IMG/VR virus record: IMGVR_UViG_3300017991_000259
Span: 1 to 34,235 of that record
Direction: 5' to 3' (one strand)
Length of the DNA: 34,235 nt
From: a virus
Shown: one piece after another, positions 2,515 to 34,184 of the stretch
Layout of the letters: each line of letters opens with the position of its first letter
Position numbering within the stretch: position 1 is the stretch's first letter
The notes under the pieces: generated by a model
What the model saw: the letters and a program-made list of their open reading frames with translations, nothing else
Databases searched by the model: none
What the model was told of the DNA's origin: nothing
Position numbers and translations under genes: made by a program

Positions 2515-2843
2515 CAGGTCTGTCCCCCTTCCACCGTCGTGAATGCATCCATTTGATTCGGGCTCTTGCCAAGCGCAACACGCTTGCCATCGTGCTCCGC
2601 CAGGTGGACCACTCCATCCACCACCTTGGCCTTGCCCAGCTTGGACTTGCAGCTGATCCGGATGGCAGCGGCCTCCCGGCTTTCGGCCGGCGCCAGGGTC
2701 ACGGTCAGCGTGATGGTGCGCTCCGCCGTGGCCAGCGTGTTCACGTCGTCCACGTCCAGCAGCACCCGCTCCAGCTCGCGCTTGAACAGCTCCAGCGCGG
2801 CCCCGTCAGCCAGGGTGTCCAGGCCCACGGGCTCCAGCTTCAT
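2514..2843 (-). CDS. Small early protein paired with DUF2303 gene
   Basis: 109 residues starting MKLEPVGLDTLADG, with GGGAGG about 5 bases upstream and an ATGA overlap with the preceding gene at 2840. The N-terminal half is a predicted helix (ALELFKRELERVLLDV) and the second half is strand-rich (TITLTVTLAP, AAIRISCKSKLGKA). I do not recognise a named domain. Its coupling on both sides suggests it acts with the DUF2303 product. Confidence 0.75.
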   Translation of the reverse strand: MKLEPVGLDTLADGAALELFKRELERVLLDVDDVNTLATAERTITLTVTLAPAESREAAAIRISCKSKLGKAKVVDGVVHLAEHDGKRVALGKSPNQMDAFTTVEGGQT

Positions 2844-3385
2844 GGCGTCCTCCCTTCTCCGCGCGCTTGCGCGGTCTCCAGCTCCTCCTCCCGTGCGGTC
2901 ACCTCCTGCATCCGTGGTGACCGCGTGATGGCGTCTACCAGCTCCGCACAGCGCGCCTGAGCGCCTGGCGGCAGCTCCGCATGGAAAGACACCGGGGACC
3001 CCGGTTGGTCTGCGTAGGCGTCCGCGAACAGCCACACAGCTGCCACCGCCTCCGCGTGCACAGGCTCCGGCATCGGCAGCGGCTCCGCGTCCAGGTCCAG
3101 CTCCCCCTGGCCGGCAGCGTGCCGCCAGGACACCCACACGATAGCCTGCCGGCCGCTGTTCGTCCGCCGGCGCCGGCCAGAGTCCAGCACCAGGCCGGAC
3201 TTGGACAGCCGGGTGAGCGCGCCGCTGACGGTCTGGTGTCTCATGTCCAGGTCCAGCTCCGTGCGCTCACACGTCAGGCCGTACCGTCCCGCGCCATCGA
3301 CGTGGCGCAGGATCTTCCCGTCCATCTGCGGGAGCTGCGCTTGCAGGCTCTCCCACGCCTCCCGGCTGGTGTCACGCACCTCCAT
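2840..3385 (-). CDS. Winged-helix DNA-binding protein
   Basis: 181 residues. Residues about 23-80 read as a MarR-like winged helix: a helix ending ILRHV, a recognition helix region RHQTVSGALTRLSKSGL, then the wing LDSGRRRRTNSGRQAIVWV. The C-terminal half is helical and acidic. ATG at 3385 has GGAGGAGGTGACC directly upstream; the longer GTG at 3400 overlaps the site. It overlaps the end of the replication initiator gene by 14 bases. Likely role is binding phage DNA in replication or early regulation, inferred from fold and position. Confidence 0.7.
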   Translation of the reverse strand: MEVRDTSREAWESLQAQLPQMDGKILRHVDGAGRYGLTCERTELDLDMRHQTVSGALTRLSKSGLVLDSGRRRRTNSGRQAIVWVSWRHAAGQGELDLDAEPLPMPEPVHAEAVAAVWLFADAYADQPGSPVSFHAELPPGAQARCAELVDAITRSPRMQEVTAREEELETAQARGEGRTP

Positions 3386-4421
3386 GGTCACCTCCTCCAC
3401 GTGTGTCCACCAGGTCCGCCTCCGTCACGCCGGCGGCCGCGGCCATGTCCTCCCGCAGCTCCTCCGCAGAAGGGCCAGGTGCCGGCCGCTGCGGCGCCTG
3501 TCCGTCCCACGTCTCACCCACGTGATTGACCACGGCCTGGAGGCTGGGATCCGTGTATCCCTTGCTGACCAGGCCGCGCATGGTGCGCCTGAACTCCTCC
3601 ACCAGGTCCGCGTCTGCCCAGCGCAGACAGGTGCCGTGGGTGGAGGCCGTATCAGCAGCATCCACCTCCCGCGGCTTCAGGCCGCCACCACTCGCGCGGG
3701 GGTACGCCTCCGGGTCGTCATGTGATTCCGCCTCCATGGCCGCCATGAACGCCATGCGGATCCGCAGGGACTCCCGGCCATGCTCCGTGTGCACATCCTG
3801 AGGCCGCACCGGGGTGAAGCACCCCGCCACCACGTTGTCCGGTGGGGGGGGTGAGGGTGGCGCCGGCGGCGCCTTTCCCCTTCCCCTTCCTTTCTGTTCT
3901 ATTCCCTTCATTTGGGTGGAGTCCTCCGGCTGGCTGCCGGACTGATCCGGCTCGCTGCCGGAGTGGTCCGGACCACTCCGGACTTGTCCGGAGTCCTCCG
4001 GATCTGCCGGCGCGCGCTCACCGCCCTCCGGGTCCGGGCCGCGCGTCCCGGGAGGACTCCCCGGTGCCGGAGGCGGGCCGAACCTGGACGGGGCCTCACG
4101 GTCATAGCGCATCCCACGCTGATGCTTCTCCCAGCGCAGGATGGCCGCCACCTCCCGCTCCTGGTGGTCCACATAGAACAGCCACAGCTGCGCGCGGTGC
4201 AGCTCCTCCCGCAGGCCGGTCACCATGTCCACGTCCCAGCCCTTGTCACGCGCAACCGCCGGCACCACCTCATCCAGGATGTCATCAGGGTCGGCGCTCA
4301 GGCGGCCATCACGGTCACCGTGCGCCAGCGCCAGGGAGTACAGCACCTCCGCCTCCAGGGACACCCGGCCAAACCGGCTGTTTCCGGACAGGCACTTGCT
4401 TATCATCCTGCGCTCCGCCAC
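3372..4421 (-). CDS. Replication initiator / replisome organizer-like protein
   Basis: 349 residues. The N-terminal 110 residues match the pattern of phage replication proteins with a winged helix: RRMISKCL, then a helix with LYSLALAHGDRDGRL, a DPDDILDEVVP segment, and ILRWEKHQRG. Residues about 110-210 are a Pro/Gly/Ser/Asp-rich linker, and the C-terminal third is helical (DADLVEEFRRTMRGLV). GTG at 4421 is preceded by GGAGGAGGAGCAC; ATG at 4406 is an alternative. The linker is encoded by a phased CCGG array (3926-4010) that may be a replication origin, an arrangement like lambda O. The longer frame to 4511 has no good start. Confidence 0.7.
   Translation of the reverse strand: MAERRMISKCLSGNSRFGRVSLEAEVLYSLALAHGDRDGRLSADPDDILDEVVPAVARDKGWDVDMVTGLREELHRAQLWLFYVDHQEREVAAILRWEKHQRGMRYDREAPSRFGPPPAPGSPPGTRGPDPEGGERAPADPEDSGQVRSGPDHSGSEPDQSGSQPEDSTQMKGIEQKGRGRGKAPPAPPSPPPPDNVVAGCFTPVRPQDVHTEHGRESLRIRMAFMAAMEAESHDDPEAYPRASGGGLKPREVDAADTASTHGTCLRWADADLVEEFRRTMRGLVSKGYTDPSLQAVVNHVGETWDGQAPQRPAPGPSAEELREDMAAAAGVTEADLVDTRGGGDHGGA
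3926..4010. repeat. Phased CCGG array (origin candidate)
   Basis: Nine CCGG tetranucleotides begin at 3926, 3937, 3947, 3958, 3968, 3978, 3988, 3998 and 4007, a spacing of 9-11 and mostly 10 bases, about one helical turn. The period is not a multiple of three, so it does not come from a repeated peptide even though it lies in coding sequence. The middle is a 24-base perfect palindrome. Iterons inside an initiator gene are known from lambda O; that this is an origin is my inference. Confidence 0.6.
3958..3981. repeat. 24-bp perfect palindrome
   Basis: The two 12-base halves (left half CCGGAGTGGTCC) are exact reverse complements. It sits at the centre of the phased CCGG array inside the initiator gene. 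A dimeric DNA-binding protein site or a cruciform-forming origin element are both possible. Confidence 0.75.
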
Positions 4422-4614
4422 GTGCTCCTCCTCCCGTGTGAACAGGATGGGTGGGCCGCCACCCAGCACGTCACCACCCCGGTGCGGCCCTGCCCATCCT
4501 GTCTGGAGCACCAGGGGAAGCGGGGAGAGTCAGCTGCCCCGCGCCACTCTCCCGGACACGTTTGGTGCTCGCGCACACTCCACGCGCCCCTGGTCGCCTC
4601 CTCCTGGCCCCGGC
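4422..4614. promoter_or_regulatory. Non-coding gap upstream of initiator gene
   Basis: 193 bases with no credible gene. It has an 8-bp inverted repeat, GGGAGAGT at 4523-4530 and ACTCTCCC at 4546-4553 with a 15-base loop and no T-tract. It may carry a leader or promoter for the replication genes, but I see no convincing promoter hexamers. Confidence 0.3.
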
Positions 4615-20202: not shown

Positions 20203-20775
20203 TTACGCCCTCTCCATCCGCCAGACCACCTGGCGCGGGATCTCCTCATCTACCATGCGCTGCGCCTCCCGGTCCGCCACCGTCCGGATGACCTCCATGG
20301 CCAGGTCATGCATGAAGATCCGTTTGGCCGTCACCGGCAGCCGGTTCCGTCTGGGCCGCCCCTTGCTGTCCTTCCCCGTGGACACGCGCGCCCTGGGGGA
20401 CCGTTTCACCACCAGCAGCTTGCCGCTGTTGCGGCCGTTGATGAGAAACGCCCCAGGGAACTTGTGCGCGCCGGTGGTCACGCCGGTGGCCGTCTCAACG
20501 GGGGTGGCAATGCGCACCGGGTTCAGGCTTTTGCTGTAGACCCGCACCTCCGCCACCATCCGGCGCCGGTGCGCGCGGCGGATATAGTACCGCTGGCGGA
20601 TGTGCTTCTGCGCCACGTGGAGCCGGCGGGCCGTTTCCCGGACGGACTTGGTGCGGATCTTCCCCGCCGTCTTGTTCAGGGCACCGGCCACGGCCAGCTC
20701 CATCACCTTGTCCCCGCGGTTCAGCATCTGCACCACCGTGCGATCATTGATGACCAGCTGCGGCCCGTCCTGCAT
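20203..20775 (-). CDS. Minor tail protein Z
   Basis: 190 residues starting MQDGPQLVINDRTVV, in an ATGA overlap with the upstream stop at 20775. It matches the gpZ family layout: AGALNKTAGKIRTKSVRETA (residues about 30-50), HVAQKHIRQRYYIRRA, then basic strands, GAFLINGRNSGK and a C-terminal helix. gpZ connects tail and head. The upstream frame to 20835 lacks a good start. Confidence 0.85.
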   Translation of the reverse strand: MQDGPQLVINDRTVVQMLNRGDKVMELAVAGALNKTAGKIRTKSVRETARRLHVAQKHIRQRYYIRRAHRRRMVAEVRVYSKSLNPVRIATPVETATGVTTGAHKFPGAFLINGRNSGKLLVVKRSPRARVSTGKDSKGRPRRNRLPVTAKRIFMHDLAMEVIRTVADREAQRMVDEEIPRQVVWRMERA

Positions 20776-21449
20776 CACGCTGCCTCCTGGAGCCGCAGGT
20801 CCAGCAGTCCCGTGCCGTCCGGCCGGCGGCCGCACACCGTCCAGGAGTCGTCACGCTCCGCGAACACCGCGGAGTGGCCGTGCTCCACACCAGTAGCCAG
20901 GGCCGCCTCCACGGTCACCGTGGGCTGCGTCCCCGCCATGCCCAGCGCCGGCCGGGACGGATCCCGGAAGATGCCCCACAGGGACAGCTCCCCGTTGAAT
21001 GTCACCACCTCACCGTGGTCCTTCAGGAAGATGGCCGCGTCACCTTCCTGAACCCCCACGGATGTGACGGTCAGCACGCTGGAATACATGACATCCCCGC
21101 AGGCCGTCACCTTCAGTCGAGTCCCCCACACCTCCCCGACCTGTGGAAAGTCCAGGCTGAAGTCCACCCATTGCGGCACGTGCACCTGGCCACCGCCAAA
21201 CCATCCCGGCTCCACGTCCTTCCCGTACTGGCCCGGCCAGTCCTCCCAGCCGGCGCCGTCACGGTTGCGCTGCACCTGAAGGTGCCCCGTGCTCACGGGG
21301 CCGTCACCGTTCACGATGTAGTAGCCTCCGCGGAAGACGCGGGAGACCACGCTGGGCTGGTCGAATGCCCCCGGCGCCACCACCCCGATGGGTGGGGACA
21401 TGGCGCGCCACACGCGGTTGCCGATTTCCCAGCCGTACTGGTCACCCAC
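20775..21449 (-). CDS. Head-tail connector with gpFII-like C-terminal domain
   Basis: 224 residues from GTG at 21449 (overlapping the upstream stop). The C-terminal 90 residues (DAAIFLKDHGEVVTFNGELS, WGIFRDPSRPALGMAGTQPT, DGTGLLDLRLQEA) follow the pattern of small phage head-tail joining proteins. The first 130 residues are an extra strand-rich domain (GWEIGNRVWRAMSPPIGVV...) not seen in the minimal joiners. Position between two joiner-type genes and gpZ supports the role. I cannot assign the N-terminal domain. Confidence 0.65.
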   Translation of the reverse strand: MGDQYGWEIGNRVWRAMSPPIGVVAPGAFDQPSVVSRVFRGGYYIVNGDGPVSTGHLQVQRNRDGAGWEDWPGQYGKDVEPGWFGGGQVHVPQWVDFSLDFPQVGEVWGTRLKVTACGDVMYSSVLTVTSVGVQEGDAAIFLKDHGEVVTFNGELSLWGIFRDPSRPALGMAGTQPTVTVEAALATGVEHGHSAVFAERDDSWTVCGRRPDGTGLLDLRLQEAA

Positions 21450-33362: not shown

Positions 33363-33674
33363 TCAGCCAGCATGGGACTCTCCGCGCGCCGGCAGCTGGA
33401 GTGGCGGAAGGACGGCGGCCACCACCGTGGGCACCAGGTCCCGCGCCAGCTTGCACATCCGCTCCTCCAGCCACACTATGTCCTCCGGCTTGACCACGCG
33501 CTCCGGTGGCACGTTGCTGCCGAGCGCCACCCAGCTGAACCCCGGCCCGATGCGCTCCGCCGGCCAGTTGCCGGCCGGGAGGGACGGCCAGGCCAGCCAG
33601 TCATCCGTGACGCCGCGGGCCGCGTCCTCATCCAGCAGCACGATGTCATCCGGGCCGATGTGTGCTCTGACCAT
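33363..33674 (-). CDS. Hypothetical protein, 103 aa
   Basis: Starts MVRAHIGPDDIVLLDED with an ATGA overlap with the upstream gene at 33674. Predicted mixed fold with a Trp-rich middle (WLAWPSLPAGNWPAERIGPG) and a helical end (ERMCKLARDLVPTVVAAVLP). No motif recognised. Confidence 0.6.
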   Translation of the reverse strand: MVRAHIGPDDIVLLDEDAARGVTDDWLAWPSLPAGNWPAERIGPGFSWVALGSNVPPERVVKPEDIVWLEERMCKLARDLVPTVVAAVLPPLQLPARGESHAG

Positions 33675-34108
33675 CAGCCGCGCCTCCGTGAGCGCACCAG
33701 GCGCAGCAGTCCCAGGAGCCCCAGGACAACGGCCCCGATGCCAACGGTGAGGCGGCCCACCATAATTGCGCCCTCCCTGCGCTGCCATTTGTCGCGCGCG
33801 GCCTGGGCCGCCTTGATGCTGTCCGCGTCCGATGTCAGGTTTGCCGCCAGGGTGGTGTCCGCCAGCGCCTCCTCCCGCGTCAGCTCCGGCGGACGGCCCA
33901 CGCCCCACAACCATTCACAGTGGGGACAGCGCAGGCCCAAACCGCCAGCCAGGAGCTGCACCGCACTGCCGCAGTCCGGACACCCCTGCGTCCGCGCGGT
34001 CACGGAGTCTGCCAGGCGCCAGCCTTTCAAGGTGAACTCCGGCAGCTGCCACCCATCCACCACAGGGCCGCCGCCGGCGTCACGCAGGTGGGACACGTGC
34101 TCCGGCAT
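33674..34108 (-). CDS. Zinc-ribbon membrane protein, 144 aa
   Basis: ATG at 34108 (TTG at 34111 also open). CPDC (C43, C46) and CPHC (C61, C64) form a zinc ribbon, followed by a helical region, and residues about 116-138 make a C-terminal membrane anchor (VGRLTVGIGAVVLGLLGLL). First intact gene of the window on the minus strand. Its upstream region holds the second CCGG array. Function unknown. Confidence 0.6.
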   Translation of the reverse strand: MPEHVSHLRDAGGGPVVDGWQLPEFTLKGWRLADSVTARTQGCPDCGSAVQLLAGGLGLRCPHCEWLWGVGRPPELTREEALADTTLAANLTSDADSIKAAQAARDKWQRREGAIMVGRLTVGIGAVVLGLLGLLRLVRSRRRG

Positions 34109-34132
34109 CAATCCGCGAACGGCCCCCGCACT

Positions 34133-34184
34133 CCGGACTCCTCCGGAGTCCTCCGGACCGGACCGGACCGGACCGGACCGGACC
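34133..34184. repeat. Second CCGG array upstream of first gene
   Basis: CCGG at 34133, 34143 and 34153 (10-base spacing), then at 34158, 34163, 34168, 34173 and 34178 (5-base spacing, GGACC units). It shares TCCGGAGTCCTCCGGA (16 bases) with the array inside the initiator gene. A binding array for the same protein is one explanation; a slippage-prone microsatellite is another. Confidence 0.6.

Follow-up and report, generated by a model that had tools for sequence, protein, structure and literature searches.

The locus studied here raises the question of why a phage gene should hold a regular, helically phased row of CCGG tetranucleotides. It lies in the window, one viral contig that is 34,235 bases long and has a GC content of 0.685. 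An original prediction, made from the DNA alone, had held that nine CCGG sites recur here every 9 to 11 and mostly every 10 bases, and that the coding frame does not explain such a period, and had suggested that the array serves as an origin inside an initiator gene. The sites start at 3926, 3937, 3947, 3958, 3968, 3978, 3988, 3998, and 4007 (span, 3926 to 4010), giving spacings of 11, 10, 11, 10, 10, 10, 10, and 9 bases, and the complete palindrome TCCGGA is present at 3967, 3977, 3987, and 3997, in exact 10-bp steps. CCGG is common in the window anyway because the DNA is GC rich (68.5%), with 552 sites or about 1.6 times the dinucleotide expectation. The longest 9- to 11-bp chain formed by any other tetramer in the window has five members, and the longest CCGG chain in Markov sequences (60 of third order and 60 of fourth order) has four. 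When the peptide was held fixed and its codons were redrawn from the phage's own usage, a chain of nine arose in 6 of 20,000 trials, and four or more TCCGGA arose in 1 of 20,000. The CCGG sites of the array also occupy all three codon positions. Thus, the array is genuine and is not accounted for by the peptide that it encodes; both the spacing and the argument from the coding frame, as originally put forward, are confirmed by these site positions and controls.

The open reading frame that contains the array (3372 to 4511, minus strand) is open from 4511 and encodes 379 aa; the strand had been absent from the original prediction. Homologs begin with MAxGRMLSK, and the counterpart in the window, VAERRMISK, starts with a GTG at 4421 that is immediately preceded by a GGAGGAGG stretch. 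Judging from this alignment of starts and the upstream stretch, the gene therefore probably extends from 3372 to 4421 (Table 1). An AlphaFold model of the initiator, for which relatives found by the DNA motif served as the alignment, has a pLDDT of ~90 to 98 over most of the N-terminal domain. The linker encoded by the array and the adjoining purine run is mostly of low confidence and is predicted to be disordered, and the C-terminal region is predicted to recruit the replisome. The top PDB matches of the model in Foldseek were 4pql and 4pt7, which we take to be structures of staphylococcal RepA_N initiators; the match is weak, given E values of 0.02 to 0.03 and a TM score (target) of 0.45.

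Table 1. Features of the window and their coordinates (strand: -, minus;., not assigned)
Feature	Coordinates	Strand	Remarks
Replication-initiator gene (probable extent)	3372..4421	-	349 aa from likely GTG start at 4421; homology and upstream GGAGGAGG
N-terminal winged-helix-like domain, predicted to bind iterons	4062..4406	-	Residues 36-150 of the 379-aa ORF; AlphaFold
C-terminal helical region, predicted to recruit the replisome	3399..3785	-	Residues 243-371; moderate-confidence helices; function by analogy with pSK41 Rep
Putative iteron array	3925..4011	.	Nine CCGG, 4/9 full TCCGGA, 9-11-bp steps; linker-coding
Purine-rich, lower-GC stretch; candidate unwinding/loading element	3872..3913	-	Directly 3' of array, coding strand
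Second TCCGGA array; candidate second binding site	34132..34184	.	Three TCCGGA, exact 10-bp steps, into (CCGGA)n

Searches with the protein sequence gave little. The initiator had no Pfam match at an E value of 0.1 or better (RepA_N PF06970 and Phage_rep_O included) and no match among PDB sequences, and no relatives were found with the full protein in viral contigs, with an N-domain query (its first residues inexact) in viral contigs, or by tblastn in phages. A later protein scan of viral contigs returned two loci only, one of them identical to the query. The recognizable genes of the window all lie on the minus strand, with PHROGs matches to the terminase small and large subunits, portal, major head protein, tape measure, DNA methyltransferase, and HNH endonuclease. 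The gene after the initiator (2840 to 3400, minus strand) matched phrog_1123 (unknown function) as its sole PHROG, and nine genes located 3' of related initiators included no match to it. No recognizable helicase-loader gene was found beside the initiator in the window, and the relatives of the nearby gene at 1792 to 2514 (L004 to L025) showed no recognizable homologous initiator by tblastn.

Relatives emerged from a blind DNA scan of 2.9 million IMG/VR viral contigs for three TCCGGA at fixed steps, which yielded 30 stretches at 10-bp steps and 97 at 11-bp steps. The control AGGCCT, a palindrome of the same composition, gave 0 stretches at 10 bp in the same contigs, and 30 records contained no stretch with the reversed pattern. 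The ORFs over the 10-bp matches include PHROG replication-initiation or primosomal proteins (loci L064/L079, L065, L069, L072, L074, L078, L081, and L086). Proteins were grouped by homology as connected components of blastp matches at an E value of 1e-4, with array-coded residues masked. One component unites ORFs from 57 loci, namely 54 viral loci found by the motif, the window protein, ORF11 of phage r1t, and the initiator of a Rhodobacteraceae phage. Among loci found via the DNA motif only, the N-domain of the window protein matched L215 (E, 6e-19), L177 and L193 (both 1e-15), and L152 (9e-11) by blastp, and 24 of 30 aligned homologs matched phrog_1408, a replication initiation protein. The placement of the array in the linker part of an initiator-like gene is thus upheld by the PHROG families of the N-terminal homologs and by the predicted disorder of the linker. 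A second initiator family, phrog_2509 (L139 and L203), bears such arrays too. About half of the 11-bp matches and most of the 10-bp matches fall outside the homology group; some of these fit other initiator families, and others have no PHROG match.

The relatives allow the spacing to be compared with the peptide. In 49 distinct arrays, whose median start is 45% of the way along the gene and whose loci have a GC content of 0.39 to 0.70, the steps were 11 bp (117), 10 bp (30), or 12 bp (2), and the 11-bp arrays start in all three codon phases (21/14/9). Because the same DNA word is read at different steps, the order of residues differs: 10-bp arrays encode SGxxRxxPxxSG and 11-bp arrays SGxxPxxxRxxSG. 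A sample chosen by protein alone, comprising 36 homologous genes, was drawn from prophage initiators found by profile (in the phylum of a Rhizobacter genome and that of a Polyangium genome) and from named phages found by tblastn. Chains of at least three 5-mers at 10/11 bp were present in 15 of these 36 genes (synonymous shuffles: mean, 0.6; maximum, 3), and 21 failed the strict array test. Chains at 7/8 bp were present in 18 of the 36 (mean, 1.3; maximum, 5), and steps of 6, 9, and 12 bp showed no clear excess over shuffles in this sample. Likewise, pairs of identical palindromic hexamers in a 23-gene linker set peaked at 10 and 11 bp, with 12 pairs versus 0.35 in shuffles.

The word itself differs between phages. 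It is TCCGGA in the Rhodobacteraceae phage, of the TCGCGA type in Fishburne, Bernal13, Bipper, PFR2, Sparky, and L246, CACGTG in L231, ACCGGT in L235 and L239, and CCGCGG in L244. The classes of word are not scattered over a tree of the DNA-binding domain but clustered, requiring 8 changes versus 13.3 when shuffled, with none of 200 shuffles as low. This would be expected if the DNA-binding domain reads the word, and shared ancestry contributes in part. What relatives keep, then, is the 10- or 11-bp spacing; they vary in residues, in reading-frame phase, and even in motif. The proposal that the linker is shaped by DNA needs is supported in that relatives conserve spacing at the DNA level, the opposite of a pattern in which the peptide is kept and the spacing is lost.

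Beside the array, purine content on the coding strand reaches its highest value for any 40-mer of the window at 3872 to 3911 (92.5%), and the 40-mer at 3874 to 3913 ranks second in AT content (57.5%). In most homologs, the array is followed on the coding strand by short repeats rich in purines, such as AAGTTT, ACAGAG, GGGAACA, GGAACAGG, and GAGAAG. The GC content of the downstream region was below that of the gene in 38 of the 49 arrays, and the purine excess was larger downstream than upstream of the array (Wilcoxon p, 0.003). Such a stretch would fit an unwinding or loading element. As a separate observation, near-identical tandem repeats of 8-bp GGAACAGG units (or of 7-bp GGGAACA units) come after the putative iterons in L248, at about 1932 to 1966, and in the linkers of L249, L250, L253, L254, L255, L256, and L257. 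This non-triplet repeat is thus common to initiators from phages of Mycobacterium, Gordonia, Propionibacterium, Bifidobacterium, and Marinomonas.

We consider it highly probable (roughly 85%) that the array is the iteron set of the initiator and that, with the purine run, it forms the origin of the phage; binding, melting, and the start of replication at this site are what we infer from these features. The binding sites of the initiator would be embedded in the DNA that encodes its own flexible linker. Its N-terminal winged-helix domain would bind the palindromic CCGG-centered sites, and steps of 10 to 11 bp would put these on one face of the helix, allowing a multicopy complex of initiator dimers or oligomers. 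The adjoining purine-rich, lower-GC stretch would then be opened, and the C-terminal region might bring in helicase/primase machinery of the host or the phage. The residues of the linker would largely be a by-product of the DNA code.

The alternatives are best weighed with a second array in view, which lies near the right end of the contig, upstream of a gene at 33674 to 34111 (minus strand) and outside the initiator gene. It has a 16-mer, TCCGGAGTCCTCCGGA, in common with the linker array, and its (CCGGA)n run at 34153 to 34184 resembles a slippage product; as a whole, the second array may be another site for the initiator, an operator, or a product of slippage. More than one array is also present in a few other records. 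A search of genome contigs for four phased TCCGGA returned mainly decamer repeats outside initiators, which calls for caution and is no support. In bacterial chromosomes, these tandem decamers are mostly near perfect and outside initiator genes; slippage can therefore produce such arrays. That the linker array itself is a neutral, functionless minisatellite left by replication slippage is nevertheless very unlikely in our view, since in the initiator arrays the spacers have diverged and the hexamer and phase are kept, the location in initiator linkers recurs across phages, and the composition-matched AGGCCT gave no arrays. Even more doubtful, and disfavored by us, is the reading that the array only reflects how a disordered S/G/P/D linker of low complexity is encoded in a GC-rich phage. 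The predicted disorder of the linker and the overrepresentation of CCGG across the window would suit it. It is at odds with the rarity of such chains after synonymous recoding, with a period that is not a multiple of three, and with the same DNA word occurring in all three phases in relatives with a GC content of about 0.4 to 0.5.

Short phased repeat arrays are also typical of centromere sites, and the second array fronts another gene cluster. The linker array might accordingly be bound by proteins in another role, as a parS/parC-like partition site or as an operator with which the initiator, or a regulator, governs its own operon. Its recurrence inside the linker of the initiator itself, beside a purine-rich, strand-biased element, and the clustering of the motif with the DNA-binding domain of the initiator argue against this, and we regard it as very improbable. 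Likewise, no ParA/ParB-like gene was found among the window ORFs scanned, a set that covered part of the small ones.

The preferred reading, that of iterons within an origin, may extend well beyond this phage. We lean, with some reserve, toward a large group of winged-helix phage initiators that share one origin layout inside the initiator gene, in which palindromic hexamers phased every 10 to 11 bp precede a purine-rich tandem repeat on the coding strand whose short units often measure 7 to 8 bp. In keeping with such a superfamily, TCCGGA recurs across phages of very different GC content and changes of word follow the DNA-binding domain. The periods are mostly not multiples of three, and the peptide would therefore be a by-product.

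Lambda O, with which the original prediction had compared the locus, has its iterons, four repeats of ~18 to 20 bp, inside the initiator coding sequence and beside an AT-rich element. PMC7157519 likewise cites the lambda origin as lying within o. The parallel is apt as to layout, but the repeats of lambda are longer than the 9- to 11-bp spacing of the window, whose initiator has no Phage_rep_O match, and the r1t-type replisome organizers and staphylococcal RepA_N plasmid initiators are closer relatives than lambda O. The lactococcal P335 replisome organizers (r1t ORF11/Pro11, Tuc2009 Rep2009, and TP901-1 ORF13) have repeats inside their own initiator genes, as in the window, and according to PMC8965321 the TP901-1 and Tuc2009 initiators bind direct repeats within their own genes that serve as the origin. 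ORF11 of r1t belongs to the same homology group as the window initiator and has its array inside the gene, where the linker-coding part contains GGAACC four times in 11-bp steps and short AT-rich repeats come next. It differs in its word (GGAACC versus TCCGGA/CCGG), its steps (11 bp versus mainly 10 bp), and its AT-rich host, and only 45 residues of the N-domain align with it (blastp E, 3e-5 in a small database; 40% identity).

In pSK41, the N-terminal domain of Rep binds four Rep boxes located centrally in rep, the linker encoded by the origin is dispensable as protein, and the C-terminal domain binds DnaG (PMC5703833). The RepA_N plasmid initiators of pSK41 and pTZ2162 may resemble the predicted layout of the window protein in their winged-helix N-terminal domain, central origin within rep, origin-encoded linker, and separate C-terminal domain (PMC5703833). 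They are also its best, albeit weak, fold matches in the PDB, although it has no match to PF06970, and their Rep boxes include an A+T-rich tract where the window has short phased palindromes instead. The "RepA-like replication initiators" of the actinobacteriophages Fishburne, Bernal13, Bipper, PFR2, and Sparky belong to the same N-domain superfamily as the window protein and have 11-bp linker arrays followed by GGAACAGG repeats, with a word that differs from that of the window. For other mycobacteriophages with RepA-like proteins, no repeated motifs were reported in the regions examined (PMC7157519).

The general design of an origin within the initiator gene is already known from r1t, Tuc2009, TP901-1, pSK41, and lambda. 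The apparent novelty lies in a short, helically phased palindrome code that many phages have in common and in its combination with a purine-rich repeat tract. No earlier description of TCCGGA iterons was found in the literature searched, a scope without the key r1t and TP901-1 papers, and priority is uncertain. Few phages, to our knowledge, have a known replication origin. If our reading is correct, a DNA signature in the initiator gene could serve to predict the origin in this phage and in many others, including laboratory phages such as the mycobacteriophages Fishburne and Bernal13. Origins, and perhaps initiator specificity, might then be readable from sequence in hundreds of phages. The arrays would also represent a widespread case in which the binding demands on the DNA shape a protein linker, and the initiator/iteron pairs would form a natural set from which to learn how winged-helix initiators choose their sites.

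In Streptomyces, Polyangium, Planctomycetota, and others, tandem decamers of the TCCGGANNNN form lie outside initiator genes (L091 to L122). L160 (record G716) has ten three-site TCCGGA matches at 11-bp steps at about 20570 to 20847, and the ORF over its longest chain has no PHROG match. A 180-aa ORF with an 11-bp TCCGGA array recurs in L155 (5933 to 5960), L132, and L167, in L132 without a PHROG match. An array identical to that of these three loci is present in record G698 (53,933 bases), the record behind L217, where it is separate from the array of the initiator.
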